A DNA stretch of 64,000 bases, taken from positions 1 to 64,000 of the forward strand of contig CALMPI010000023.1 in assembly GCA_937872175.1 (NCBI GenBank). The letters run 5' to 3'. Below are positions 33,377 through 53,856 of the stretch, in pieces. Both the position numbers and the translations under genes were made by a program. The notes under the pieces were generated by a model, which saw only the letters and a program-made list of their open reading frames with translations, was not told the origin of the DNA and did not search any database. The DNA is from an uncultured Flavobacteriales bacterium (GTDB lineage: Bacteria > Bacteroidota > Bacteroidia > Flavobacteriales_F > PHOS-HE28). Within the stretch, counting starts at the first letter, position 1. Each line of letters opens with the position of its first letter.

Positions 33377-35287
33377 TCACCGGATGGGCGTGGCCGCACC
33401 CTGGGTGCGCTGCCGCACCAGGTGTTGACGCAGGAGGTTCATGCGTTCGTTGAGCTCCTTGATGTAAAGCGCCTGCTCCTCCACGGTGACCCAGAGGCGG
33501 GTGTTCAGGTCGTCCAGGCTGAAGGGCCCCTGCATCTCCCAGTCGCTGCGTCCGGGGATGGTGGGCAGGTGACGCTCGCGTTCCACGTAGTTCACCATGT
33601 CCGCGATGGGCATGCGGCTGTAGCCGGCACCGCGCTGGCCGTCCTCCTCGCGGGCCTTGCCGTCGTAGTAGGCGTCGAACACGTGGTCGCTCAGGAGCAG
33701 GTTGCCGCCCCACACCCCGATCTCGGCGCTCAGGGTACCGGGGCCCTTGAACTTCTGGTCGGGCGATACGCCGCTGGTGGCCCAGCCCGCGGTCTTCTCC
33801 ACCATCACGGCCGTGGGGCTGTAGATGAAGTCGCCCTGGGTGAGCACCGGCACGATGGAATTGATCTGGGCGTTCAAACGGAGCAGGGGACGGCGGTTGG
33901 ACGATCCGGTCTGGCCCACCCACTGAAAGGTGCCGTCACAGGTGACCAGGCTGGAGTTCGCCTGGAGCGCGCAGCCGGGGGAGTGGCTGTAGCCCAGGCA
34001 GAGCACGCCCGGGAAGTTCTGCGGGGAGTTGTTGGGGCAGGAGGCGAAGTAGCACGTTCCGCTGCCTGGTGTGAAGAGGTGGCCGCAGGCATCGCAGTAA
34101 ATGCCGAACAGGGCGGTGTAGTTCGTCGTCTCGGCGTTCACACCGATGTTGGAGGTCCAGCTGTTCAGGTCGAAGCAGTACTCCACCAGAAGGTTGCTGG
34201 CACCGTTCCATTGGAAGTTGGACACGTTGAAGTTGTGCGCGTTCCAACCCACCACGGGAACGAAGCTGGCCGAGGTGTGGCAGATCACCCAACCAGGGCT
34301 CACATCCAAGGTCGCAAGGGCCGCCAAGGGGGTGTTCTTCATGCTCAACTGGCTGTTGGTGATGGCCTGTCCGCCGCTGCCGGTGGCCTGGAAGGCGGCA
34401 CCGGTGATGTTGGTGTTCGCACAGATGTTCAGTGCGGCAAGGTCGCTGGCCAGGTAGAGGTATTGGTGCCGGCCATCCTCCCAGCCCCTGCTGTAGGGGG
34501 TCTCGATCGTACTGAAGAGGCCGACGTTCGCGAAGGAACCGTTATCGATGATCGGACCGCCGGTGGTGGGCCAGCCGGCCTGGTAGGCGCAGGCGGGTAC
34601 GGGACTGCTGAGGTACACCCGGTTCTTCTCCAGGATGAAGGCGTTCTCCAGCTGGTACCAGTTGGCCGAGTTGTCGATGTTGCCCTCGTGGGCGCTGGTG
34701 GTGGCGTTGAGGCGGATACTGCCTTCGGTGTTGGTGGCCGACGTGCCGCCGATGAGCAGACCGCCGTTCACTTCCAACTGCTCGGTATATGTCGCTGGGG
34801 CGTTGATGCCCACGAGACCGCCGGTGGACAAGGCGCCGGCCGTGATCCGCATGCGCTCCAGTCCATTGGTGCGGAAGGCCAGGTCCACGTTGTCCGTGGT
34901 GCCCACGAGATCCGTGGCCGGGTTCGTGCCGGTATTGCCGCCCAGTTGCCAGGCTGCCGTGCTTGAAACGAAGACCCAGCCTGGCGCGGGCAGGAGGTCG
35001 GTATCATAGTACCAGTAGCCCTTCGGGGCGGTGGCGGTGTTGTTGTTCTGGAAGACCATCAGGCCCTCGGCGGTGGCCAGGGCCGTCCGCTGGGCATCGG
35101 TCATCCGGGGCGCAAGGAAGGCGCGGCCCAACTGGTTCAGGTCCAGCATGGCGTTGGCGCCGGGCGCTGCACCGGTGTTGTTGATGCCGATCTGCCCGTT
35201 ACCGGACATGCATGCGAGCATCGAGGCGACGAACCCGAGGTACCGGAAAAGCCGAACCCCTGAACGGTGGAGGTGACGTGCCTGCAT
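33377..35287 (-). CDS. Tail-fibre-like exported protein, array copy 4
   Basis: 636 residues with a signal peptide (hydrophobic GFVASMLACMSG). The mature N-terminus begins QIGINNTGAAP, a lead common to Bacteroidota fibre-like proteins, followed by FLAPRMTDAQR, the FQNNN/YWYYDTD block and the GTTDNVDLAFRTNGLERMRI stretch, here divided as GTTDNVDLAFRTNG and ERMRI. A variable centre with several Cys comes next (CDACGHLF, CYFASCPNN). The C-terminus has LSDHVFDAYYDG, RHLPTIPGRSDWE and a coiled-coil end (VEEQALYIKELNERMNLL). This end type replaces the S74 endosialidase chaperone in related fibres. It is close to copy 3 at both ends but not in the centre. No T9SS sorting domain is evident. Confidence 0.8.
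   Translation of the reverse strand: MQARHLHRSGVRLFRYLGFVASMLACMSGNGQIGINNTGAAPGANAMLDLNQLGRAFLAPRMTDAQRTALATAEGLMVFQNNNTATAPKGYWYYDTDLLPAPGWVFVSSTAAWQLGGNTGTNPATDLVGTTDNVDLAFRTNGLERMRITAGALSTGGLVGINAPATYTEQLEVNGGLLIGGTSATNTEGSIRLNATTSAHEGNIDNSANWYQLENAFILEKNRVYLSSPVPACAYQAGWPTTGGPIIDNGSFANVGLFSTIETPYSRGWEDGRHQYLYLASDLAALNICANTNITGAAFQATGSGGQAITNSQLSMKNTPLAALATLDVSPGWVICHTSASFVPVVGWNAHNFNVSNFQWNGASNLLVEYCFDLNSWTSNIGVNAETTNYTALFGIYCDACGHLFTPGSGTCYFASCPNNSPQNFPGVLCLGYSHSPGCALQANSSLVTCDGTFQWVGQTGSSNRRPLLRLNAQINSIVPVLTQGDFIYSPTAVMVEKTAGWATSGVSPDQKFKGPGTLSAEIGVWGGNLLLSDHVFDAYYDGKAREEDGQRGAGYSRMPIADMVNYVERERHLPTIPGRSDWEMQGPFSLDDLNTRLWVTVEEQALYIKELNERMNLLRQHLVRQRTQGAATPIR
33543..33712. repeat. Near-identical block shared by array copies 3 and 4 (C-terminal part)
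   Basis: This stretch is essentially identical to 35475-35644, an offset of 1932 bp. Identity falls on both sides. Confidence 0.85.
34545..35195. repeat. Near-identical block shared by array copies 3 and 4 (N-terminal part)
   Basis: It aligns with 36477-37127 at the same 1932-bp offset. The first 280 bp are almost identical and the rest has scattered differences. The sequence between this block and the C-terminal one is clearly more diverged. Confidence 0.8.
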
Positions 35288-35314
35288 CGCTCAGGGGTTC
35301 GGGCCGAAGGATGG

Positions 35315-37219
35315 TCAATCCTGCTTCAACCCATCCAGTCGCTGCCGCATCAGGTGCTGGCGCAGGAGGCTCATCCGCTCGTTGAGCTCCTTGATGTAGA
35401 GGGCCTGCTCCTCCACGGTGACCCAGAGGCGGGTGTTGAGGTCGTCCAAGCTGAAGGGGCCCTGCATCTCCCAATCGCTGCGTCCGGGGATGGTGGGCAG
35501 GTGACGCTCGCGTTCCACGTAGTTCACCATGTCCGCGATGGGCATGCGGCTGTAGCCGGCACCGCGCTGGCCGTCCTCCTCGCGGGCCTTGCCGTCGTAG
35601 TAGGCGTCGAACACGTGGTCGCTCAGGAGCAGGTTGCCGCCCCAGACCCCGATCTCAGCGCTCAACGTACCGGGTCCCTTGAACTTCTGGTTGGGCGATA
35701 CGCCGCTGGTGGCCCAGCCTGCCGTCTTCTCCACCATCACGGCCGTGGGGCTGTAGATGAAGTCGCCCTGCGTGAGCACCGGCACGATGGAGTTGACCTG
35801 GGCGTTCAAGCGGAGCAGAGGACGGCGGTTGGCCGAACCCGTCTGACCGGTGAACTGGAACGTACCGTCGCAGGTGGTCAACGAGGAGGTGGGCAGGAGC
35901 TGGCAGCCCGGGGTGTGGCTGTATCCCGTGCACAGCACGCCCGGGAAGTTCTGCGGTGAGTTGTTGGGGCAGGACGCAAAGTAGCAGGTACCGCTGCCCG
36001 GCGTGAACAGGTGGCCGCAGGCGTCGCAATAGATCCCGTAGAGCGCCGTGTAGTTCGTCGTCTCGGCGTTCACGGTCACGTTGCTCGTCCAGTTGTTCTG
36101 GTCGAAGCAGAACTCCACCAGCAGGTTGCTCGCGCCGTTCCACTGGAAGTTGGACACGTTGAAGTTGTGGGCGTTCCATCCGGCCACCGGGGTGAAGCTC
36201 GCGGCCGTATGGCACACCACCCAACCACCGCCCACATCCAGCGTGGCCAAAGCGGCCAGGGGGGTGTTCTTCATGCTCAGCTGGGTGTTCGTGATCGCCG
36301 TTCCACCACCGCTCGTGGCGCTGAACGCGGCTCCGGTGATGTTCGTGTTCGGGCAGATGTTCAAGGCCACCAGGTCGCTCGCGAGGTACAGGTACTGGTG
36401 ACGACCATCCTCCCAGAAGCGGCTGTAAGGCGTTTCGATCGTCGAGGCGATGGTGGTGTTGGCGAAAGCTCCATTGTCGATGATCGGACCGCCGGTGGTG
36501 GGCCAGCCGGCCTGGTAGGCACAGGCGGGTACGGGACTGCTGAGGTACACCCGGTTCTTCTCCAGGATGAAGGCGTTCTCCAGCTGGTACCAGTTGGCCG
36601 AGTTGTCGATGTTGCCCTCGTGGGCGCTGGTGGTGGCGTTGAGGCGGATACTGCCTTCGGTGTTGGTGGCCGACGTGCCGCCGATGAGCAGACCGCCGTT
36701 CACTTCCAACTGCTCGGTATATGTCGCTGGGGCGTTGATGCCTACGAGGCCGCCGGTGGACAAGGCGCCGGCCGTGATGCGCATGCGCTCCACGCCATTG
36801 GTGCGGAAAGCCAGGTCCACGTTGTCCGTGGTGCCCACGAAATCCGTGGCCGCATTGGTGCCGGTATTGCCGCCCAGTTGCCATGCCGCGGTGCTTGATA
36901 CGAAGACCCACCCTGGCGCGGGCAGGAGGTCGGTATCATAGTACCAATAGCCCTTCGGGGCGGTGGCGGTGTTGTTGTTCTGGAAGACCATCAGGCCCTC
37001 AGCGGTGGCCAGGGCCGTCCGCTGGGCATCGGTCATCCGGGGCGCAAGGAAGGCGCGGCCGATCTGGTTCAGGTCCAGCATGGCGTTGGTGCTGGGCGCT
37101 GCGCCGGTATTGTTGATGCCGATCTGGGCATGCACGGGCAGCAGGGCCGTGAGGACCGTGCCAAGCACGACCGGACGGAACAGCGGGATCGCGGTACGGG
37201 TCGAACGCATGCGCATCAT
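35315..37219 (-). CDS. Tail-fibre-like exported protein, array copy 3
   Basis: 634 residues from the ATG at 37219, sharing one base with the stop of copy 2 (TGATG). Signal peptide ends LLPVHAQ; the mature protein starts IGINNTGAAP. Same layout as copy 4: conserved N-terminal third, variable Cys-containing centre, LSDHVFDAYYDG / RHLPTIPGRSDWE / VEEQALYIKELNERM end. The N- and C-terminal parts are nearly identical to copy 4, while centre residues differ at many sites (for example TTIASTIETPYSRFWED against VGLFSTIETPYSRGWED). It precedes copy 4 by 27 bp. Extracellular location is inferred; how the mature protein is anchored is unclear. Confidence 0.8.
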   Translation of the reverse strand: MMRMRSTRTAIPLFRPVVLGTVLTALLPVHAQIGINNTGAAPSTNAMLDLNQIGRAFLAPRMTDAQRTALATAEGLMVFQNNNTATAPKGYWYYDTDLLPAPGWVFVSSTAAWQLGGNTGTNAATDFVGTTDNVDLAFRTNGVERMRITAGALSTGGLVGINAPATYTEQLEVNGGLLIGGTSATNTEGSIRLNATTSAHEGNIDNSANWYQLENAFILEKNRVYLSSPVPACAYQAGWPTTGGPIIDNGAFANTTIASTIETPYSRFWEDGRHQYLYLASDLVALNICPNTNITGAAFSATSGGGTAITNTQLSMKNTPLAALATLDVGGGWVVCHTAASFTPVAGWNAHNFNVSNFQWNGASNLLVEFCFDQNNWTSNVTVNAETTNYTALYGIYCDACGHLFTPGSGTCYFASCPNNSPQNFPGVLCTGYSHTPGCQLLPTSSLTTCDGTFQFTGQTGSANRRPLLRLNAQVNSIVPVLTQGDFIYSPTAVMVEKTAGWATSGVSPNQKFKGPGTLSAEIGVWGGNLLLSDHVFDAYYDGKAREEDGQRGAGYSRMPIADMVNYVERERHLPTIPGRSDWEMQGPFSLDDLNTRLWVTVEEQALYIKELNERMSLLRQHLMRQRLDGLKQD

Positions 37220-39225
37220 CAATGGGTGGTTCGAGGTTCGGTGGCGGCACGTCCCTTCAGGTCGGAGACCATCCGGGCTTTCTGGGCATCGGTCAGCTCA
37301 GGCAGCGCCTTCACGGCCGAGGTCATCGGTACTACTTCGTCGGGGCGCAACGGCCGGTCCGTGCTCAACACCTCGAGCAGATGGGCCTGCCTGTTCAGCT
37401 CGGCCAGGTACAAGGCGTGGGTCTCCGTGGTCGTCCACAACTGGTTCGTCAGGTCCCCGAACGAGAAGCCATGCTCCCGTTCCCAGGCATCCCGGCCCTT
37501 CATGGTGGGCAGATGCCGGTTCAGCCGGGTGAACTCGGCCATCTCTTCCATGGAGAGGGTCCGGTGCGCGCCTGCGGCCTCCGCATCCGAGGGGGCCACC
37601 CGACCGTCGAAGTGCCGGTCGAACACATGGTCGTTCAACCGCACGCCATTGTCATACACGCCGTTCTGCGCATGGATGGTGCCCGGGCCCTTGAAGGACC
37701 GGTACGGATCCGGCGGATTCACCCACAGGCGCCAGCCGGGGGTCTCCTCCACCATGAAGCCACCGTCATACACGATGTAGTTGCCGTTGCCGGGTACGAT
37801 CGGACCTGGCGTTGTGGCCACCGTGCCGCCGAAACGGATCACCGGGCGGATGGTGCTCGCGCCACCAAGGCCGCAGGTGTTGTCCATTCCGCTTCCGGAA
37901 AGGATACCGGAGCACGCGGTGGCGATGGCCCCACAGGTCCCGTTCACCAGGTTGTTGTAGCGGGTGTAGCTCAAGGCGGTGGACGTTGTGGCCACCTTCA
38001 CAGGCGTGTTCGCGCTGGTGCCGATGGCGGATCCCTGCATGGAGACCTCCACAATGATGTTGCGGGAACCATCCCACACGAACGGCGTGGAGAGGTTGAA
38101 GACGTCCCATGCGCCGGCCCCGGCGATGGGCCGGTTCTGGGTGGCCGGAGCGTTGAACCCGCAACCAGCGCCAGGGTCCGTGTTGGCCACGAACCCGCCG
38201 GTGAGGTCGTTCAGGCCCGGAGGAGCGTGGAACACGGCGACCTGCCAGGCCCAAGCTTTGGGTAAGGCCTGACCGATGAAGAACCCGATCTGGTCGATCG
38301 GCTGCCCGGGACAAAGCCCCTGGGTCCAGGTGGTGTTCCCGTTCAACTGGGCCAGTTCCACGTTCAGCTCGTTCACCAGGAACATCATCTGCTTGCGCAT
38401 CCGCTGCGCGATACCGGTCTGATTGATGTACGGGGTTACCGTCGCCGCATTGCTCCATTGGCCGGTGGTGCAGCCAGGGCAGGCCGGTGGAAGCGGGGTG
38501 TTCGGGATGTTGTTGGAGATCTCGGCCGTTCCTGCGCCGCAGGTCGCCTCCGCGTGATGCGTATAAGCCAGTGGGCCGAAGGCCTGATAATCGTTCGGCA
38601 GCTTCCGCCACCCGACCGCCGGTCCCATATAGCCCTCGTGCCAGAGGTCGGTGGCATTCCAGCGGATGGTGCCCACGTTGGTGTTCGCGGTGGTGCCGGT
38701 GAGGCGCACCGCACCGCTGACCTCCAGGAGCTGCTGCGCGGCAGGAAGCGGGGTGGGCGCTCCCATGGCCACGCGGCCACCGGCCTCCACCACCATGCGT
38801 TCGATGTTGTTCGTGCGGAAGTTCAGCTCCGTGGCGTCCGTGGTACCGAGGTAGTCATTGATCGGGTTCACCAGGTCATTGCCCGTAAGGCCCCAGGCGG
38901 CGGCGCCGACACTTACACGCACCCACTGGGCGAGCGCGCCGTCGTAGTAGTAATAGCCGGCCACACCATCGGTCTGATAGATGGTCATGCCATCCACGCC
39001 GGCGGGTCGTTGGGCCGTGGTCATCCGCGGCACCAGGAAGCCCTTCTTGGCGTTCGCCGGCAGGGCGCTGACGTCGATGTCCAGGATGGCCGTGGGGCTG
39101 GGGGCCGCGCCGTTGGCGTTGATGCCGATGTTGTTCTGGGCGGCCAGGCCCATGCTCAGGCCCAGCGTCAGTACCGTCAGGGAGGTCCTCATGGCCGTGC
39201 GGGTCTTGGGTTGCGCGTTGGTCAT
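37219..39225 (-). CDS. Tail-fibre-like exported protein, array copy 2
   Basis: 668 residues. Signal peptide (MGLAAQ), then NNIGINANGAAPSPTAILDI and GFLVPRMTTAQRPAG, GTTDATELNFRTNNIERMVV: the same N-terminal plan as copies 3 and 4 but much diverged. The centre has several Cys and CPGCTTGQW. Its end has LNDHVFDRHFDG, NRHLPTMKGRDAWE and TETHALYLAELNRQAHLLE, followed by a 45-residue helical extension (LTDAQKARMVSDLKGR). It begins two bases after the stop of copy 1. Confidence 0.78.
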   Translation of the reverse strand: MTNAQPKTRTAMRTSLTVLTLGLSMGLAAQNNIGINANGAAPSPTAILDIDVSALPANAKKGFLVPRMTTAQRPAGVDGMTIYQTDGVAGYYYYDGALAQWVRVSVGAAAWGLTGNDLVNPINDYLGTTDATELNFRTNNIERMVVEAGGRVAMGAPTPLPAAQQLLEVSGAVRLTGTTANTNVGTIRWNATDLWHEGYMGPAVGWRKLPNDYQAFGPLAYTHHAEATCGAGTAEISNNIPNTPLPPACPGCTTGQWSNAATVTPYINQTGIAQRMRKQMMFLVNELNVELAQLNGNTTWTQGLCPGQPIDQIGFFIGQALPKAWAWQVAVFHAPPGLNDLTGGFVANTDPGAGCGFNAPATQNRPIAGAGAWDVFNLSTPFVWDGSRNIIVEVSMQGSAIGTSANTPVKVATTSTALSYTRYNNLVNGTCGAIATACSGILSGSGMDNTCGLGGASTIRPVIRFGGTVATTPGPIVPGNGNYIVYDGGFMVEETPGWRLWVNPPDPYRSFKGPGTIHAQNGVYDNGVRLNDHVFDRHFDGRVAPSDAEAAGAHRTLSMEEMAEFTRLNRHLPTMKGRDAWEREHGFSFGDLTNQLWTTTETHALYLAELNRQAHLLEVLSTDRPLRPDEVVPMTSAVKALPELTDAQKARMVSDLKGRAATEPRTTH

Positions 39226-39227
39226 GG

Positions 39228-41351
39228 TCAGGGCTTGCTGGGTTGGTTGAGCTGCTCCAGGCGGTCCAGCAGCGCCTTCCGTTGATCATCGGTCAGGCGT
39301 GGGCTTCGCTCCACGTCCTGTCGCATTCGTTGCCATTCCTCCGGAGTAAGACCCTTGGCGAAGGTCATTTCCTCCAACACGCGAAGGTCGCCTTCCAACT
39401 CGGCGATATACAGTGCCTGCTCCTCCACGGTGCGCCAGAGGCCCGTGCTCAACTCGCCCAAGGAGGTGCGTTCTCCCGTCTCCCAGTCGGTCCTGGAGGG
39501 CATCGACGGAAGGTGCCGGTTCTCGGCCAGGTATTGTTCCAGCGCGTTGAGGGGTACGAAGCGATGGTCGGCGGCGCTGCTGGCGTCCTCGGGCTTCACC
39601 GCATCATCGAAGTAGCGGTCGAACACGTGGTCCGAAAGCTGCAGGCCTCCGTCGAACACCCGGTCCTGGGCGCGGATGGTGCCCGGACCTCGATACACGC
39701 CTGCGGTGGCCGCCCATTGGGGGGTGCCCACCATCAGCGCATGGCCGTTCAGCAACGTGTAATCCCCCGTGTTGTTGAACGGGGTGGGTTGCTTCACCTG
39801 ACCCCAGACCTTGAAGACCGGGCGGGTGGTGTTCAACCCCCAGAGCAGACCCGTGGGGAAAACCGCCGGGGTGGTGTAGTGGGTGGACCCGGGGTTCACA
39901 CTGGAGCCCGGCATGTAGGACCAGATCGTGCTTTGGAAGGTGAGGCCGGAGGTCAGCAGGACGCGGGGGCTGACACCGGCCACGGCCGATTTCAGGTAGT
40001 TGATCTCGATGATGATGTTGTCCGTGCCGTTCCAGAAGTACGGCGGGTTGAGCGGGAAGACCACGTCGCCCGCACCAACACGCAGGTTCGTGGAGTTGAA
40101 TCGCACCGGGGAGGCGTTCATGCCGTTCCCTGTGGCCTGGTCGATGCCTGTGGCCGGAAGGGACGCGAGTGCGGTGGTGGCCACCTTGACGTTGATGTTG
40201 AGCACGCAACCGGGAACGGGTGTGTTCGGGTCATCATCCAATGAGGTGACCGCCAGCTGGGTGATGTTGCCTGCGCACAGGTTGAACGGCGGGTTGGCCA
40301 GCTCGCTGCCGAGGATGAGGTACTGCACCCGGCTTCCGGCGGATTGGGCCGTCTGGCTGGTGGGGAAGGGCGTCTCCCGCAATCGCTGAGGGGCCGCGGC
40401 ACTGGTCTGGAAGTTGGCCACCCCGCCTTGCGTCTGGCCCGGAGCACCGCACACCAGGTTGAAGTCGGTGTAATCCTGTCCGGTCACCACGGTTTCGATG
40501 TTCTCCAGCCGCGTGAACAGAGGCCCCACGCGCAGGAACTGGTTCTGGTTGGTGGCGGTGCAGTTGGCGCTCAGTTGAAGGGTGGTGGCGTTCACCACGT
40601 TCAGGATGGTGGCGCCGACCGGGATGCCCGTACCGCTCACATACATGCCGGCGGCGAGACCTGCGGTGGACGGGATGGTGATGTTGGCGCTGCCATTGGT
40701 GGTGTTCATGCCTTGGATGGCGCGCACCCCGCCACCCTCGTGGTAGTTGAGCGCGTCGTTGTAGCGCAACACTCCGTTCGCCGAGGTGAGGCTGTACGAA
40801 GTGCCCGGATAGACCGGAGCCTGCTTGAACAGACGCATGGCCCCGTTGACATGCAGGGCCTCCGCGGGGGTGGTGGTTCCCACTCCCACATAGCCGTTCG
40901 TTCCGCTGAGGGTGATCCTCGGGTTGGCCGCACCGTTGGTATTGATCCGCATGTCATCGTTGCTGCCCGCCACCGTTCCGATGAAGTTGGTGGCCACGTT
41001 GGTGCCCGCGTTCCCGGATTCCGACCACCCGAAGCCGGTGGCCATCCGGTTCCAGGTGGCCCCATCATGATAGAACAGGCCCACCGCGTTCTTCGGATCA
41101 TAGGTCGCCGGGTTGTCCGTTTGGTACACCCAGAGGCCGGCGGTGGGGCCAGGCAGCGCCAGGCGCTCATTGTAGGTAATCCGCGGAATGAGCAGGCCGC
41201 GGTTGGTGGCCTCCAGTTCCAGCAAGGCATTGACATTCGCCGGCGGGGCCCCCGTGGTGTTGATCGCCACGTTCTGGGCGCTGGCCGGAACGGCGAGAAC
41301 ACCGGAGATCAACAGGACGTACAGCTGGCACGAGCGTAGCGTCTTCATCAT
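39228..41351 (-). CDS. Tail-fibre-like exported protein, array copy 1
   Basis: 707 residues from the ATG at 41351 (a second ATG follows directly). Signal peptide ends VPASAQ; the mature start is NVAINTTGAPPANVNALLEL, then GLLIPRITYNERLAL. GYVGVGTTTPAEALHVNGAMRL, here in parts, is the classical fibre lead-in. The centre contains NGSANITIPSTAGLAAGMYV and a Cys-poor jelly-like region. The end has LSDHVFDRYFDD, NRHLPSMPSRTDWE and VEEQALYIAELEGDLRVLEE, plus a helical tail (LTDDQRKALLDRLEQL) like that of copy 2. It is first in the array, with an exact -7 box at 41406-41413. Confidence 0.78.
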   Translation of the reverse strand: MMKTLRSCQLYVLLISGVLAVPASAQNVAINTTGAPPANVNALLELEATNRGLLIPRITYNERLALPGPTAGLWVYQTDNPATYDPKNAVGLFYHDGATWNRMATGFGWSESGNAGTNVATNFIGTVAGSNDDMRINTNGAANPRITLSGTNGYVGVGTTTPAEALHVNGAMRLFKQAPVYPGTSYSLTSANGVLRYNDALNYHEGGGVRAIQGMNTTNGSANITIPSTAGLAAGMYVSGTGIPVGATILNVVNATTLQLSANCTATNQNQFLRVGPLFTRLENIETVVTGQDYTDFNLVCGAPGQTQGGVANFQTSAAAPQRLRETPFPTSQTAQSAGSRVQYLILGSELANPPFNLCAGNITQLAVTSLDDDPNTPVPGCVLNINVKVATTALASLPATGIDQATGNGMNASPVRFNSTNLRVGAGDVVFPLNPPYFWNGTDNIIIEINYLKSAVAGVSPRVLLTSGLTFQSTIWSYMPGSSVNPGSTHYTTPAVFPTGLLWGLNTTRPVFKVWGQVKQPTPFNNTGDYTLLNGHALMVGTPQWAATAGVYRGPGTIRAQDRVFDGGLQLSDHVFDRYFDDAVKPEDASSAADHRFVPLNALEQYLAENRHLPSMPSRTDWETGERTSLGELSTGLWRTVEEQALYIAELEGDLRVLEEMTFAKGLTPEEWQRMRQDVERSPRLTDDQRKALLDRLEQLNQPSKP

Positions 41352-41661: not shown

Positions 41662-44052
41662 TCAGTACACCAACAACGGCCAGGCGCGCGGTGGACCGCT
41701 GTCGGTGGTGAGCCGTACGCTGTAGCTGCCCCCCGGAAGCTGCTCAGGCACAAGCTCGAGCACCGTGCGCCCGGAGCCCACGGTGAAGGTGCGCCGGAGA
41801 ACGGTACGGCCCATGGCGTCGAGCAGGGCGAGCTCCACCCCTTCGTCCCCCGAAGCCTCGTACACCAATCCGACCCTCCCCGCGGTGGGGTTGGGGAACG
41901 GACCTTCAGTTCCACCGGTCCGGAAGACCGCCGTGGTGGTGGCCACCCGCGTTTCATGCCCGCTGGCATCCACCTCGGTCAAGCGATAATAGTTCAGGCC
42001 ATTGACCGGGTCCAGGTCCCGGAACTGATAGGAGAGCTGCAATTGGCTGTGGCCTGCTGCGGGGACGGAACCGATGGCAGCGAAGTGCTCACCGTCCGCC
42101 GAACGCTCCAGGATGAAGCGGTCCGAAGCCGTCTCCGTGGCCGTCTCCCACGCGATGAGCACATGGTCGGCCGCCGGCTCCGCGGAAAGGCCGATCAACT
42201 CCAGGGGCAGGACGGTGCAGTCCAGGGAGGCCCCGTTGGTCAGGTTCCAATCCAGGCTGAACTGCTGGCCGTTCGCACTGAAGTTGTCCACATAAAGGAT
42301 GTAGATCTGGCCGACGAGGACGTTGAAGGTGCTGACCCACCGATCGCCCCCCGCACCCTCGGTGACGTCGGTGGCGCCGTTGCCGCATCCGGTCGGGCCG
42401 GTCGGAGCGGCATACGAGCACCGCAGGGGTGGGCCCACAGGTGGACAGGTCACGGCGGACATGGGCCCCCACACAGCGAAGTCATAGTCGGTCGGAACAG
42501 CAGGGTTGATGGTGAAGCCGATGGTGCCCGCCGCGCTCGGGCTGAAGTAGTACCACGTGCCCTGCCGTTCCCCGCTGGCGAGGCACCCCTGGTTGGAGGT
42601 GTTCAGGTCGGCCGTGCATCCCGTGTTGTTCGTGTTATTGTTGAAGCTCTGATTGTTGCAGATCGTGGTGCCCCCTGAGCAATCCTCCGGAAAGGTGGAC
42701 CCCACGGTGGATTGGAACGCGCAGATGTTGAACGAGCCCTGCTGGCCGTTGTAGCCCCACATGCGCAGATAATAGGTCTGCCCCGGGGTGAGCGGGTTGC
42801 ACCGGCGGTCGATCCGGGGCATGAGCCCGATCGCATCATCGTTGCACTGGATGCTGGTGAACGGCCCCGCGCAACTTGGGGCGGAGTAGAGCTCCATGGC
42901 CCCGTTGGTCATCGTGCCGATGGCGGTCTCGATGGTCACCACCCCGTTGGCCGGGGCTGTGAAGGTGAACCACACATCCCCGCCGGTGTAAAGGCCGCAG
43001 CCCGGGGCCGGGGCTCCGGTGGTGGCTGTGGCGCCGATGTTCGAGTAGGTCAGCGGGATGCAGGAGGACAGCACCGGGAGCGGATTCGCGCCGCAGGGAT
43101 CGTTCCCGGTCATCGGTGGGGGCGGTGGGATGGTGTACGCGCAGATCGAGAAGGTGCCGTTGTTGTCGCCGCCGAACTCCCAGAAGCGCACATACACGGT
43201 GCTGCCCGGCGTGAGGCCGGTGGCGTTGATGTAAGGCATCAAGCCGTTCGCGCTGCCATCATCATCGCAGGCCACCTGGGTGAAGGGCCCGCTGCATGAA
43301 GGGGCGGTGTAAAGGGCCATGCCCCCATCGGTGACCACACCCGTGTTCGAGTCGAGGATCACTACGCCGCTGGCGGGCACCACCACGGAGAACCACACAT
43401 CGCTGCCGGTGTAGAACGCACAGGTGGGGGCGGGTGGTCCGGTGGTGGCCGTGCTGGACGCCGTGGTGCCGTTCTGGAGGACGCAGCTCAGGCCCGGGGT
43501 GAGCGGGGTGGCGCCACAGGGGTTGTCGTTCGCAGGCGGAGGGGGCGCAGCACCGATGCTGAAGGTGCCCGGGCAGGGGCTGGCCGGGGTGGGCCAGGTG
43601 TCGAACCAGATGTAGTACTGGGTGCCGGCGTTGAGCGTGACGGTGATGGTGGTGCTGTTGCCGGCGTTGCCGTCGCCGTACACGCAGGTGCCTCCGCCGT
43701 TCGGGCAGCCGGCCCATACCTGCACGGAGCTCCAGGTCTGACCGGTGACATTGATGTTATACGCTCCCGTGACCGAAGGGGTCAGCACGTACAGCGCTTC
43801 GTTGCCGTTCTTGTAGGCCGCATTGTCACCGGTGCCGCAAAGGGCGCCCGGCACATTGGTGGAGTTCAGGTCGTTGGTGGCACCGCAGGTCAGTGCTTGG
43901 TTGGTGATCGGCAGGCTGGCGGGGTTCAGCACCGTGGCGCCAGCGCAGGTGGTCGCTTGCGCCGCTCGGGGCGTGCTGACCGCCACCAATGTGGACAGCA
44001 CCGCTCCGGCCACGGTCCAGCGGTAAGGGTGTTGGTGCTTCCGTGGGCTCAT
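41662..44052 (-). CDS. T9SS cargo protein with repeated PPC-like domains, cassette A
   Basis: 796 residues. Signal peptide ends RAAQA. Three related jelly-roll-like modules follow, each with a CGA..L opening, a (T/S)GSDVWFSVV or GGDVWFTFTAP strand and a CxDD motif before a long strand (TYYLRMWGYNGQ). A fourth module carries NNTGCTADLNTSNQGC, GTWYYFSPSAAGTI and DYDFAVWGP. Next is NGASLDCTVLPLELIGL, a fibronectin-III-like segment (DRFILERSADGEHF...GLNYYRLTEVD in parts) and a T9SS type A sorting domain (FPNPTAGRVGL). Shared with the proteins at 44621-46573 and 58690-60537. Its start lies three bases after the small secreted gene. Confidence 0.85.
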   Translation of the reverse strand: MSPRKHQHPYRWTVAGAVLSTLVAVSTPRAAQATTCAGATVLNPASLPITNQALTCGATNDLNSTNVPGALCGTGDNAAYKNGNEALYVLTPSVTGAYNINVTGQTWSSVQVWAGCPNGGGTCVYGDGNAGNSTTITVTLNAGTQYYIWFDTWPTPASPCPGTFSIGAAPPPPANDNPCGATPLTPGLSCVLQNGTTASSTATTGPPAPTCAFYTGSDVWFSVVVPASGVVILDSNTGVVTDGGMALYTAPSCSGPFTQVACDDDGSANGLMPYINATGLTPGSTVYVRFWEFGGDNNGTFSICAYTIPPPPPMTGNDPCGANPLPVLSSCIPLTYSNIGATATTGAPAPGCGLYTGGDVWFTFTAPANGVVTIETAIGTMTNGAMELYSAPSCAGPFTSIQCNDDAIGLMPRIDRRCNPLTPGQTYYLRMWGYNGQQGSFNICAFQSTVGSTFPEDCSGGTTICNNQSFNNNTNNTGCTADLNTSNQGCLASGERQGTWYYFSPSAAGTIGFTINPAVPTDYDFAVWGPMSAVTCPPVGPPLRCSYAAPTGPTGCGNGATDVTEGAGGDRWVSTFNVLVGQIYILYVDNFSANGQQFSLDWNLTNGASLDCTVLPLELIGLSAEPAADHVLIAWETATETASDRFILERSADGEHFAAIGSVPAAGHSQLQLSYQFRDLDPVNGLNYYRLTEVDASGHETRVATTTAVFRTGGTEGPFPNPTAGRVGLVYEASGDEGVELALLDAMGRTVLRRTFTVGSGRTVLELVPEQLPGGSYSVRLTTDSGPPRAWPLLVY

Positions 44053-44055
44053 CGC

Positions 44056-44520
44056 TCAATGCGTTCCCGGGCCGGTGTGGTCGTCGTACAGTTCGGGATA
44101 CGCTTCGATCCACGCACGCTTGGCGGCCGAGCGCACGGAGTCGTCGGGTCTGTTCGCATCCTGAAGCATCCAGGCACCGTCCGGTGTGGGCACCAAGGCC
44201 CGGTAGGTCGGAGCTCCGGGCCACATCACCTCGACCCCGAGCAGAGGCACGCCGCGTACCTGAAGCACCGTCACCAACGCGTCCAGATCGAGGTCGGTCA
44301 CCGGCGTGAACTTCGCCAACGTGCGATCCGCGGCGAGGTGGAGCGGCACCACCTGGTCATGGTCGTGCAGCGTATGGATGGTCACTTTCTCCAATGTGCC
44401 GCTGAGCGGAAGGAAGAAATGCAGGAACACATCGATACCGGCCACGCTTTGGGCGGAGGCGGCGCGCGGCCCGGCGGTCAGCACCACCAGTAGGAAGAAG
44501 AAGGTTCTGCGCAGAACCAT
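44056..44520 (-). CDS. Small secreted protein, cassette A partner
   Basis: 154 residues with a signal peptide (ending AASAQS). No recognised domain. Its C-terminus (AAKRAWIEAYPELYDDH) resembles that of the 165-residue protein at 46570-47067 (LRKAAFIQAHPEHYQRM). Each is the immediate upstream neighbour of a related T9SS cargo gene, here with a three-base gap. A -7-like box (TAACTTGC) lies at 44549-44556. Inference: the two small proteins are distant paralogues that work with the cargo encoded next. Confidence 0.65.
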   Translation of the reverse strand: MVLRRTFFFLLVVLTAGPRAASAQSVAGIDVFLHFFLPLSGTLEKVTIHTLHDHDQVVPLHLAADRTLAKFTPVTDLDLDALVTVLQVRGVPLLGVEVMWPGAPTYRALVPTPDGAWMLQDANRPDDSVRSAAKRAWIEAYPELYDDHTGPGTH

Positions 44521-44620: not shown

Positions 44621-46573
44621 CTAGGGGTGTGGGTCCACCATGACCCTGGCGCTCCCCAGCTGTCCGCCGTCAGCGTCCTCCAACACCAGCATGTAGAGTC
44701 CTCCGGCGGCACCCGCCAGCGAAAGCTCCAGGCGGTCGCCGTGCCCGTTCGAAGGCACGACACCCTGCCGGACGCACGTTCCATCCGGGGTCCGCAGCGC
44801 GTAATGGATGACCGGGGAAGCGGACCGCGGCAGCTGCACGATGATGCGGTCCGTCGCGGGGTTGGGTCGCACCGCCAGGTGCGGTCGGTCCACCCCCACG
44901 ACGGCGGACACGGTGGAGCTCAGCGCAGTGGTGCCATCGCCATACAGGAGCCGGAGGCGATAGTAGTTCAGTCCACGCTCGGGTGATCCGTCGAGGAACG
45001 CATACTCGATCCGCTCGAGGGAGTGCCCGGCCGCTGAACGCTCCCCGATGGCGATGTAGTCCACGTCATCGGTCGAGCGTTCCACGACGAAGCGGGATGA
45101 ACCGGACTCGCTCTGGGTGGCCCAGGACAAGTGAACGCCGTCGGTCTGCACATCCGCCTCGGGACCGATCAGTTCCACAGGCAGCACGGTGCAGTCCAGG
45201 GACGCGCCGTTCGTCAAGGTCCAATCCAGCGCGAAGGCCTGTCCGGTGACATCGAAGTTGTCGATGTACATGATGTAGATCTGCCCGGCGACGATGTTCA
45301 GGGGTGCCACCCAGCCATTGCCCAGGTCGTTCTCCGAGGCGTCCACCGCCCCGTTGCCCATCCCGGTAAGGAACGCTGCCGCACCCGGATAGCCCGGCAC
45401 GTTCGGCGGATAGGCCCAGGAACATCGGATGGGGTTTCCGACCGGTGGGCAGGTGATGGTGCTCATCGGGCCCCAGATGGCGAAGTCGTAGTCGATGTTG
45501 GCCGCAGGTTGGATGGTGAGCGCAGCAGTGCCCGAGGCCGATGGAGAGAAGTAATACCAGGTCCCCTGCCGCTCATTGCCGTCCAGGCAGCCGTTGTTCG
45601 CCGCCGTGAGGTCCGTGGTGCACCCGGTGAAGTCGGCGTTGTTGTTGATCTGCTGGTCGTTGCAGATGGTGAACGCGCCGGCGCAGTCCTCCTGCGGAGT
45701 GGTCGGTGTCGCCGGCGCACTGACGCAGATGTTGAAGATGCCGGTGCTTCCGGCATACCCCCAGACCCTGATGTAATAAGTGGTGAACGGGGTCAGCGGG
45801 GCGCAGCGGAAGTCAAGCTCCGGCATCAGCAGACCGCCGAAGAAGTCCTCATCATCGTTGCAGCCTCCAGGCACCAGGGCCAGCGCACCGCAGGTCCCGG
45901 TGTACAACTGCATCGCCGCATCCGCCAGGGTGATCGCCCCGGTCTCGATATGCACCTCTCCGTTGGCGGCCGTGGTGAAGGTGAACCAGATGTCCGTGTT
46001 CGGGGCGGAGCTGCAGGTCGGCGCCGGGGCCGTGCCCGAAGCGGTGGAGCCGACATTGGTGAAATGCAGCATGGTGCAGGTCGGAAGCACCGGCAGGACG
46101 ATCGCGGACCCGCAGTTGTCGTTGGTCAACGGCGGTGGTGGTGGGATGCACGTGATGTTCAGGGGAGCGCATCCGCCCGTTCCGCAAGGGGTGAAGATGC
46201 TGACGTAGCGATCGACCAGGACACGAAGCTGACCGGTGAAGTTCGCCGCCCAGGTGACCTGCGATTGCAGCCCGCAGTAATCGTCATTGGTCGCGAGCGA
46301 TCCGCCTCCCGCATTGTTGTAAAGCGTGATCTGCGTGTCGTAGGTGGCCCCGCAGGTGTTGAACGTGTAGATGTTCCCTGCCGTGACATTGAGCAGCGCA
46401 TACTGGCCACCGTTCACACACGGCACGGTCATGCTGCCCGGACAAGGAGGTGTGATCGCCCCGCCGGCGATCACCGTGTTGTTGTTCGGGCATTGGGCCG
46501 AAGCCCTGTACGCGACGCTGGAGAGCGCCAGTGTGATCAGCAGGGAGCACTGACGAGGGTAGGGGGTCTTCAT
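44621..46573 (-). CDS. T9SS cargo protein, cassette B
   Basis: 650 residues. Signal peptide ends YRASAQ. The first module starts CPNNNTVIAGG and has TPPCPGSMTVPC, YDTQITLYNNAGGGSL and LRVLVDRY, followed by one WFTF-type module and the shared CNDQQINNNADFTGC, GTWYYFSPSASG, DYDFAIWGP module. NGASLDCTVLPVELIG, a fibronectin-III-like part and a T9SS type A domain (VRPNPATDRIIVQL) end it. The first module is the same as in 58690-60537. The ATG overlaps the stop of the upstream small gene by four bases (ATGA). Confidence 0.85.
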   Translation of the reverse strand: MKTPYPRQCSLLITLALSSVAYRASAQCPNNNTVIAGGAITPPCPGSMTVPCVNGGQYALLNVTAGNIYTFNTCGATYDTQITLYNNAGGGSLATNDDYCGLQSQVTWAANFTGQLRVLVDRYVSIFTPCGTGGCAPLNITCIPPPPPLTNDNCGSAIVLPVLPTCTMLHFTNVGSTASGTAPAPTCSSAPNTDIWFTFTTAANGEVHIETGAITLADAAMQLYTGTCGALALVPGGCNDDEDFFGGLLMPELDFRCAPLTPFTTYYIRVWGYAGSTGIFNICVSAPATPTTPQEDCAGAFTICNDQQINNNADFTGCTTDLTAANNGCLDGNERQGTWYYFSPSASGTAALTIQPAANIDYDFAIWGPMSTITCPPVGNPIRCSWAYPPNVPGYPGAAAFLTGMGNGAVDASENDLGNGWVAPLNIVAGQIYIMYIDNFDVTGQAFALDWTLTNGASLDCTVLPVELIGPEADVQTDGVHLSWATQSESGSSRFVVERSTDDVDYIAIGERSAAGHSLERIEYAFLDGSPERGLNYYRLRLLYGDGTTALSSTVSAVVGVDRPHLAVRPNPATDRIIVQLPRSASPVIHYALRTPDGTCVRQGVVPSNGHGDRLELSLAGAAGGLYMLVLEDADGGQLGSARVMVDPHP

Positions 46574-51866: not shown

Positions 51867-52787
51867 CTGAAATACGCCGCCATCGACATCGGATCGAACG
51901 CCGTGAGGCTGCTCATCGGCGATGTGATCGAGCGGGACGACCATCCGGTGGTGCGCAAGACCTCCTTGGTGCGGGTGCCGATCCGTCTGGGAGAGGACGT
52001 GTTCGCCAGCGGCGCCATCGGAGCCGCCAAGCGCGATTACCTGATCAAGAGCCTGAAGGCCTTCCGGCTGCTGATCGACGTGTACGGTGTGCCGCGCTAC
52101 CGGTGCTGTGCGACCAGCGCGATGCGCGAAGCCTCCAACAGCGCGGAGACCATCGCCCGCGTGGAGATGGAGACCGGGGTGGACATCGAGGTGATCGGCG
52201 GGCGCGAGGAGGGTGACCTGATCTGCAGCACGTTCTGGACGCAGGACCTGCTGAAGGATCGGAGCTACCTGTTCATCGATGTCGGGGGTGGCAGCACCGA
52301 ACTGACCTGGCTGGAGAAGGGGCGCCGCGTGAAGACCGCGAGCTTCAAGGTGGGCACCGTGCGCATGCTGGCCGGCAAGGTGAAGGCGCACGTCTGGCCG
52401 GACATCGCCGAGTTCCTGGGGGAACTGCGCGCGCAGCATGGTCAGTTGATGGCGGTGGGCACCGGGGGCAACATCAACCGCATCTTCAAGGAGAACGGCA
52501 ACCGCTACGGTGAGCCGCTGCAGCGCGCCGACATCCAGCGTCATCGCGACCGCATCGCAGGGTACAGCCTGGAGGACCGGGTGAAGCTGCTGCGGCTGCG
52601 GGCCGACCGGGCGGACGTGATCATCCCTGCGGCCGACATCTTCCTGCGTGTGCTGGACGCGGCGGAGATCACGGAGATCTTTGTGCCCAAGGTGGGCCTT
52701 GCGGACGGGATCGTCTACGACCTGTACATGAAGCAGTACGGACATAAGCGGTATGCGCCTGCGGATCCCGTTGGTGTTCCGGCCTGA
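51867..52787 (+). CDS. Ppx/GppA-family exopolyphosphatase, apparent CTG start
   Basis: 306 residues if it starts at the CTG at 51867 (LKYAAIDIGSNAVRLL in sequence). Family members begin M-K-(Y/F)-A-A-I-D-I-G-S-N, so the CTG sits exactly at the expected start. The only ATG/GTG/TTG in frame is a GTG at 51903, which would remove the essential phosphate-1 loop DIGSN. Other motifs: ATSAMREASN, GGREEGDLI, FIDVGGGSTEL (phosphate-2 loop) and GTGGNINRI. It hydrolyses polyphosphate or pppGpp. It lies 61 bp after valS; the next gene overlaps it by 35 bp. Confidence 0.88.
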   Translation: MKYAAIDIGSNAVRLLIGDVIERDDHPVVRKTSLVRVPIRLGEDVFASGAIGAAKRDYLIKSLKAFRLLIDVYGVPRYRCCATSAMREASNSAETIARVEMETGVDIEVIGGREEGDLICSTFWTQDLLKDRSYLFIDVGGGSTELTWLEKGRRVKTASFKVGTVRMLAGKVKAHVWPDIAEFLGELRAQHGQLMAVGTGGNINRIFKENGNRYGEPLQRADIQRHRDRIAGYSLEDRVKLLRLRADRADVIIPAADIFLRVLDAAEITEIFVPKVGLADGIVYDLYMKQYGHKRYAPADPVGVPA

Positions 52788-53856
52788 GCGGCTGTTGTTG
52801 GTGGCGGCCCTGGCCGGCTGCTCCACCGGCCGGGCGGCGTCCCCTCCCTGGGCCATCGGACTGCGCGGGCATGTCGGTTTCCTCTGGCCGCACCGGCCCA
52901 GCAGCTGGATCCTCGTGGAGGACCATTGTGCCGCGCCGGAGCTCTTCGTGGAGCGGCGGCTGCCGGGCGACCGGCCTTGGCAGCGCCACTATCGCGCACC
53001 CTCCTTCGGTGTCGGGGTGCTTTACACGGGCCTGGCCAATCCGGACCGCATCGGGGCCGCGGTGCGGCTGCTACCGTACCTGCATCTGCCGTTCACCCGC
53101 GGTACACGAGGCGACCTCGGCATGCGGCTGGGTTGGGGCGTGGGCCTGGTGACACGGCCGTACGACCGGCGGGAGAACAGCAAGCAGATCGCCATCGGTT
53201 CGCGGATCAACACCGCCATCCAGCTCATGCTCGCGTATCGTCACCGCTTCGGCCGCACCGAGCTGTCCGCAGGCTTCGGCATCGACCACTGGAGCAACGG
53301 GTCGTTCGCGCTGCCCAACCTGGGGCTCAACCTGTTGAGCGCGAGCCTGGGCGTGGCGCAGGCCCTGGGACCGGTCGCACCTTACGTGCACACCCCGGAC
53401 ACCGTGCCGCTGGAGCGACCGCGACGGGAGCACAGCGTGGTGGGCGCGCTGTTCTGGAGTGAAACGGGCCGGCCGGAAAGCGGACAGTACAGCGTGTACA
53501 GCCTGATCGGGCAGGTGCAATGGCGGCTCACGCGGAAGTCAGCCGTGGCCGTTGGTGTCGACGCGTTCAACAAAGGCGCTCTGCGCACCGATCATCCTGA
53601 ATTGGCGGACGACGGACGTGCCGCGCTCACCCAGGCGGGTCTGCATGCGGGCTATGCGCTGCTGTTCGGCCGTGGCGAGCTGTTCATGCAAATGGGGGCG
53701 TATGTGTACACCCCCGTCCCGGACCAGGCTGCGGTGTTCCACCGGCTGGGTTGTCGCTACCGGATCGCCCGCCATTTGTTGGCGCACATGGCGCTCAAGA
53801 GCCACTATGCGGTGGCCGATCACTGGGAGTTCGGATTCGGATACCGTTGGTCATGA
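52753..53856 (+). CDS. Acyloxyacyl hydrolase / PagL-like lipid A deacylase, lipoprotein
   Basis: 367 residues. A hydrophobic leader ends in lipobox AALAGC. The barrel has FGVGVLYTGLANPD, GWGVGLVTRPYD, and the family motif FGIDHWSNGSFALPNLGLN, matching the catalytic H-x-S-N-G-S region of PagL, followed by a C-terminal GFGYRW strand. Known: PagL removes the 3-O-acyl chain from lipid A in the outer membrane. In Bacteroidota, longer members like this are common and their substrates are untested. The start overlaps ppx by 35 bp and the stop overlaps the next start (ATGA). Confidence 0.82.
   Translation: MRLRIPLVFRPERLLLVAALAGCSTGRAASPPWAIGLRGHVGFLWPHRPSSWILVEDHCAAPELFVERRLPGDRPWQRHYRAPSFGVGVLYTGLANPDRIGAAVRLLPYLHLPFTRGTRGDLGMRLGWGVGLVTRPYDRRENSKQIAIGSRINTAIQLMLAYRHRFGRTELSAGFGIDHWSNGSFALPNLGLNLLSASLGVAQALGPVAPYVHTPDTVPLERPRREHSVVGALFWSETGRPESGQYSVYSLIGQVQWRLTRKSAVAVGVDAFNKGALRTDHPELADDGRAALTQAGLHAGYALLFGRGELFMQMGAYVYTPVPDQAAVFHRLGCRYRIARHLLAHMALKSHYAVADHWEFGFGYRWS

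Follow-up and report, generated by a model that had tools for sequence, protein, structure and literature searches.

A conserved cassette of exported, fibre-type proteins in environmental Bacteroidota, and the C-terminal domain it shares with phage tail fibres

Why should a bacterial chromosome carry, amid housekeeping genes, a tight row of exported proteins that seem to be built like the fibres of phage tails? The question is raised by the window, that is, the whole stretch of 64,000 nucleotides analysed here, in which four consecutive minus-strand ORFs occupy positions 33377-41351 and would be transcribed in the order A-B-C1-C2. The initial annotation had described four consecutive exported-type genes of 634-707 residues, separated by gaps of -1 to 27 bp, and the ORFs confirm this (A/B, 2 bp; B/C1, -1 bp; C1/C2, 27 bp).

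39228-41351, minus strand: gene A, 707 aa, exported (signal-peptide-like start), first in the cassette
37219-39225, minus strand: gene B, 668 aa, exported (signal-peptide-like start)
35315-37219, minus strand: gene C1, 634 aa from ATG, exported (signal-peptide-like start); a TTG start one codon upstream would give 635 aa
33377-35287, minus strand: gene C2, 636 aa, a tandem duplicate of C1 present only in this genome

The common plan proposed for the four holds: they are paralogs that can be aligned over their whole length, at 31-33% identity to A and with dozens of columns invariant; C1 and C2 are 89% identical. Export, also proposed, agrees with their N-termini, each of which by eye shows a basic and then a hydrophobic stretch up to an AQ or GQ site, followed directly in all four by a conserved mature start, (I/V)(G/A)IN (IGIN or VAIN). 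The end motif quoted as HLP.(I/M)P is present in A (HLPSMP) and in C1 and C2 (HLPTIP); B has HLPTMK in its place. Named families offer little guidance: searches of Pfam and NCBIfam returned no meaningful match for any of the four, PHROG matches to A and B are weak, cover short parts and concern families of unknown function, and a PDB search by sequence returned no match.

The surroundings are those of a chromosome. Among the downstream genes are those for MeaB, for an aminotransferase and for a 218-aa protein of unassigned function whose start looks signal-like, and other housekeeping genes also flank the array; upstream are three further genes.

41662-44052, minus strand: 796-aa protein with T9SS-associated galactose-binding-like domains
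44056-44520, minus strand: 154-aa protein with a signal-peptide-like start and no assigned function
44621-46573, minus strand: 650-aa protein with a T9SS-associated galactose-binding-like domain

The 796-aa protein ends in a T9SS type A tail that scores slightly under the curated cut-off, and it is probably a member of the cassette; in the nearest relatives the 154-aa protein is kept on the upstream side of the cassette. Neither in the window nor in the relatives' loci that were read did a phage structural gene turn up near the cassette, and the view that this is no prophage stands. A prophage origin of the whole array was rejected on the flanks, the signal-peptide-like starts and the lack of any whole-gene phage match. 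Elsewhere in the window, 52753-53856 encodes a PagL-type lipid A 3-O-deacylase-like protein (PF09411, E 1.9e-13).

That the array is more than a chance assembly follows from orthologs in the same order in other genomes and from the purifying selection that, the signal peptide apart, acts on every domain (dN/dS 0.05-0.35). A search of 45 genomes of the same genus gave clear matches in about 18, and in 12, that of the window included, A, B and C lie on one contig, as the initial annotation had proposed to look for. Their order is invariant in relatives, with spacing of -11 to +109 bp. When 42 proteins from 14 genomes of the genus were placed in a tree, they fell into one clade apiece for A, B and C (support 99-100), and the branching inside the three clades is largely congruent, as expected under joint inheritance of the set. 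In nearly all loci readable at that place, the gene directly upstream of A encodes the T9SS-type galactose-binding protein, even in L122, where the cassette block is inverted; L113 is an exception. Two chromosomal contexts occur, one adjoining MeaB, the other adjoining genes that we take, from reading their sequences, to be FtsH and BirA. Full-length relatives of A, B or C were found in none of the 295 other genomes of the phylum sample. The array of four is better described as a cassette of three genes, A-B-C, of ancient origin, with a duplication of C in this genome alone: four genes are indeed present, but they represent three paralogs.

Two C genes are carried by the window alone, and their divergence is uneven. 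Synonymous divergence between C1 and C2 is 0.14 for the N-terminal module and 0.25 for the C-terminal part, against 0.70 for the centre; C1 and its L117 ortholog differ by 0.59 in the centre. The mosaic (33377-37222) suggests either that the ends were homogenised by gene conversion or that the centre was exchanged. The B proteins of L117 and L118 are 77% alike in their centres, 95% and 90% in their ends. In the signal-peptide region (35200-35287 in C2) the two share only 21% identity, whereas the following 185 codons are 96% identical; a cysteine of this region of C2, in SMLAC, might belong to a lipobox.

Each protein can be divided into three parts, of which the first is a module of about 170 residues, recognised by profile matches.

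40734-41270, minus strand: N-terminal module of A
38626-39129, minus strand: N-terminal module of B
36611-37123, minus strand: N-terminal module of C1
34679-35191, minus strand: N-terminal module of C2

By this module A, B and C belong to a wider group of secreted Bacteroidia proteins: a profile search found it at E below 1e-30 in 66 of 295 Bacteroidia genomes, and outside the genus the matches almost always span the first 200 or so model positions. The proteins that share it carry many different C-ends. Two that were tested end in the Pfam domain Peptidase_S74, the phage endosialidase chaperone, which bears out the earlier suggestion that the C-end of A, B and C takes the place of an S74 domain in sister proteins. 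In phage tailspikes the Peptidase_S74 domain drives trimerisation (PMC3742443). Homology of the C-end itself to S74 was considered and rejected, as profile comparison gave 29% probability, over coiled coil only, and PF13884 was not matched. The A-B-C cassette has a parallel at L061:3096-10252 and L070:5347-10549, where exported proteins that combine this N-terminal module with S74-like ends are likewise encoded in tandem; PF13884 was confirmed in L061:5059-6816, and also in L089:9989-11737.

The middle part had been called a variable centre. Variable it may be, but structure prediction makes it a globular beta-sandwich like those of carbohydrate-binding domains.

39792-40451, minus strand: predicted central beta-sandwich of A, about residues 301-520
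35786-36541, minus strand: predicted central beta-sandwich of C1, about residues 227-478

For C1 the single-chain model has pLDDT mostly of 80-96 over residues 231-400. Compared with the PDB by fold, the centre reaches Z 8-9.4 with carbohydrate-binding and phage receptor-binding beta-sandwiches, among them N-terminal domains of acetylxylan esterases (7toh, 7toj) and a polyvinyl-alcohol esterase (9kr1), and also phage tail tips and fibres (9d93, 9eui, 8zdp); such matches to a model point to shared folds and are no proof of function. Best matches in a library of viral structures include tail-fibre and collagen-repeat phage proteins (E down to 9e-8), which were not taken as proof because of low TM-scores. 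No Pfam carbohydrate-binding module matched A, B, C1 or C2.

The third part carries the main argument. It is a domain of about 95 residues, of phage-fibre type, followed by a helix.

39372-39656, minus strand: C-terminal domain of A, then a helical extension to 39231
37372-37656, minus strand: C-terminal domain of B, from profile and alignment
35360-35644, minus strand: C-terminal domain of C1, from profile and alignment
33428-33712, minus strand: C-terminal domain of C2, from a profile match

Its profile finds relatives in 124 of 295 Bacteroidia genomes, and yet no entry in Pfam, NCBIfam or PHROGs names it; nor was a description of the domain or of the cassette found in searches of an open literature library. 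The usual form is short and sits on secreted Bacteroidia proteins, some with SprB repeats. The subtype of A, B and C is marked by an insertion around YFDG...ED and by an LW.TVE.QALYI helix; outside the genus, a comparable long form was noticed in one more protein of the Bacteroidia sample, a 175-aa ORF in L161. In the window's own genome the usual domain also ends a 404-aa ORF, found identically and with equal scores at C24:91005-91208 and C41:118206-118409, which may be assembly redundancy or a recent duplication.

Judged by sequence, this domain has homologs at the C-ends of bona fide tail fibres of phages, among which the A/B/C form finds its closest relatives, so the fibre-like character claimed for the array proves well founded at that end. 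The phage links rest on IMG/VR contigs, since INPHARED protein searches with the whole of C1, the usual domain and the phage-type domain gave no match. In L195 and L193 the protein with the domain matches tail-fibre families and adjoins a head-tail adaptor gene; in L196 it is followed by tail sheath and tube genes; in L206 a baseplate wedge gene precedes it, and L202 has a major head gene close by. The A/B/C subtype ends a fibre in L209/L213 that lies between a portal gene and the capsid protease and major head genes, with TerL beside, and that shares mostly 38-47% identity with A, B and C over some 107 residues (E down to 1e-26). The same subtype occurs in L214, L218, L219, L221 and L223 near tail sheath, head closure, capsid, tape-measure or terminase genes; in L219 the fibre begins with Phage_tail_fib (PF12571). 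Alignment of A, B and C with these fibres spans about 125 residues.

Two subtypes of the unnamed domain thus end fibres of several kinds of phage (L195, L193, L196, L202, L206, L209, L214, L217-L223), and in those IMG/VR fibres neither Pfam nor PHROG matches reach it. The tree computed for the domain has a split (99/99) between two groups, one of the usual Bacteroidia type and L195-kind phage fibres, the other of A, B and C and the second phage set; the tree is midpoint-rooted and its deep support is weak, so it gives no direction of transfer. Exported proteins with NTLVGPQA-like repeats and the usual domain also occur on contigs classed as viral (L187, L188, L190, L191, L194 and L201), where they may be host flank or genes carried by phage.

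How might such proteins work together? The explanation we incline to, with moderate confidence, makes A, B and C a set of fibre-type proteins, encoded by the chromosome and exported, that jointly serve as an adhesin or for surface binding. Sec would carry out the export of each. The C-terminal domain, the DHVF...HLP part and then the helix, would fold and tie the chains, probably as trimers, in the manner of the chaperone ends of phage fibres; the central beta-sandwich would be the ligand-binding part, with a polysaccharide (glycan) as the likeliest ligand; the N-terminal module would serve as the base; and the T9SS-type galactose-binding protein encoded upstream would be a probable surface partner. 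Trimers, surface position, ligand, partner and outer-membrane route are all things we infer for A, B and C. From its heptad pattern alone the end helix cannot be called trimeric, and the low confidence of the single-chain models in the N-terminal module and the C-terminal domain would be compatible with an intertwined oligomer and equally with a thin alignment. The initial annotation's undescribed surface system remains plausible.

A second perspective assigns A, B and C a structural rather than an adhesive role, in the periplasm or after release, as proteins of a matrix, scaffold or vesicle whose fibre-type ends merely hold oligomers together. It draws on export signals: TIGR04183, TIGR04131, Por_Secre_tail and CHU_C match none of A, B, C1 and C2, and the searches of A, B and C turned up no other known outer-membrane export signal, for which reason surface exposure is something we only infer. 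SprA, of the T9SS translocon, is encoded in the same genome, but as it is found in 286 of 295 genomes of the class, co-occurrence with T9SS is uninformative, and an argument for T9SS dependence on that ground was dropped. Against structural proteins speak the resemblance of the centre to ligand-binding beta-sandwiches, the relatives it has by sequence among T9SS type B cargo, the presence of the C-terminal domain, in its usual form, on SprB-repeat proteins, and the T9SS-type protein encoded upstream; we consider this reading unlikely.

The carbohydrate-binding-like centre and the T9SS-associated galactose-binding-like proteins upstream would also suit soluble proteins that bind or scavenge glycans for nutrient uptake, trimerising for avidity and forming no long fibre. 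Against this, in the neighbourhoods read, no enzyme, SusC/SusD or transporter gene was noticed adjoining the cassette, and the retention of three different paralogs together suggests a complex. Scavenging seems to us quite improbable. That the proteins are a phage remnant, or tail fibres belonging to a prophage or an extracellular contractile injection system whose other genes lie elsewhere, would account for the homology of the C-terminal domain to tail-fibre ends but is very hard to credit, given signal-peptide-like starts that are mostly missing from the matched phage fibres inspected, loci free of phage genes wherever they were read, vertical co-inheritance in three congruent clades, and the absence of the whole genes from phage collections. 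The initial annotation had named capsid, tail or terminase genes beside the same genes in relatives as evidence against its view; whole A/B/C genes lie beside none of these, whereas their C-terminal domain does.

The adhesin-like set that we prefer has a further-reaching form, which we put forward tentatively as a possibility of lower standing: the cassette may be a three-subunit, hetero-oligomeric surface fibre in which a phage-fibre C-end has been joined to exported proteins, and the domain an undescribed fibre-folding or trimerisation domain of several kinds of tailed phage and of about 40% of Bacteroidia genomes. The cassette offers a compact case in which to ask whether bacteria build hetero-oligomeric fibres from phage-type parts. 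Apart from that, the plan on which phage tail fibres are built is linked to a conserved set of exported proteins of environmental Bacteroidota, and a widespread C-terminal domain without a name in Pfam, NCBIfam or PHROGs is brought to attention. If it is true that the domain folds and trimerises fibres, this would aid the annotation of phage receptor-binding proteins and of many secreted Bacteroidota proteins.

Among known systems, the cassette has partial likenesses to several. With phage tail fibres (those of L209/L213, L214, L218, L219 and L221) it has in common the pattern KGxGT...DYVFD...LP.MP.R..W...LW.TVE.QA.. of the C-terminal domain; the N-terminal and central parts of those fibres are unlike those of A, B and C, and they are encoded among virion genes and, where inspected, mostly without a signal peptide. 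Trimeric autotransporter adhesins (type Vc) are set apart, as no YadA-type C-terminal membrane anchor was matched in Pfam and the C-end is the phage-fibre-type domain. The T9SS type B cargo protein L010 (CHU_C), from the same genome, is 30% identical to the C1 centre over residues 259-402, but has PKD domains and a T9SS sorting domain that A, B and C lack. Secreted Bacteroidia proteins with the usual form carry the same C-terminal domain family at the same end, without the A/B/C-type insertion. Bacteroidia proteins with the N-terminal module and Peptidase_S74 share the signal-peptide-like start, the module and the fibre-like plan, and in some cases the tandem arrangement, but end in PF13884 where A, B and C do not. 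The cassette is thus of a known kind, that of the secreted, fibre-like proteins of Bacteroidota, and its most general point is the unnamed C-terminal domain.
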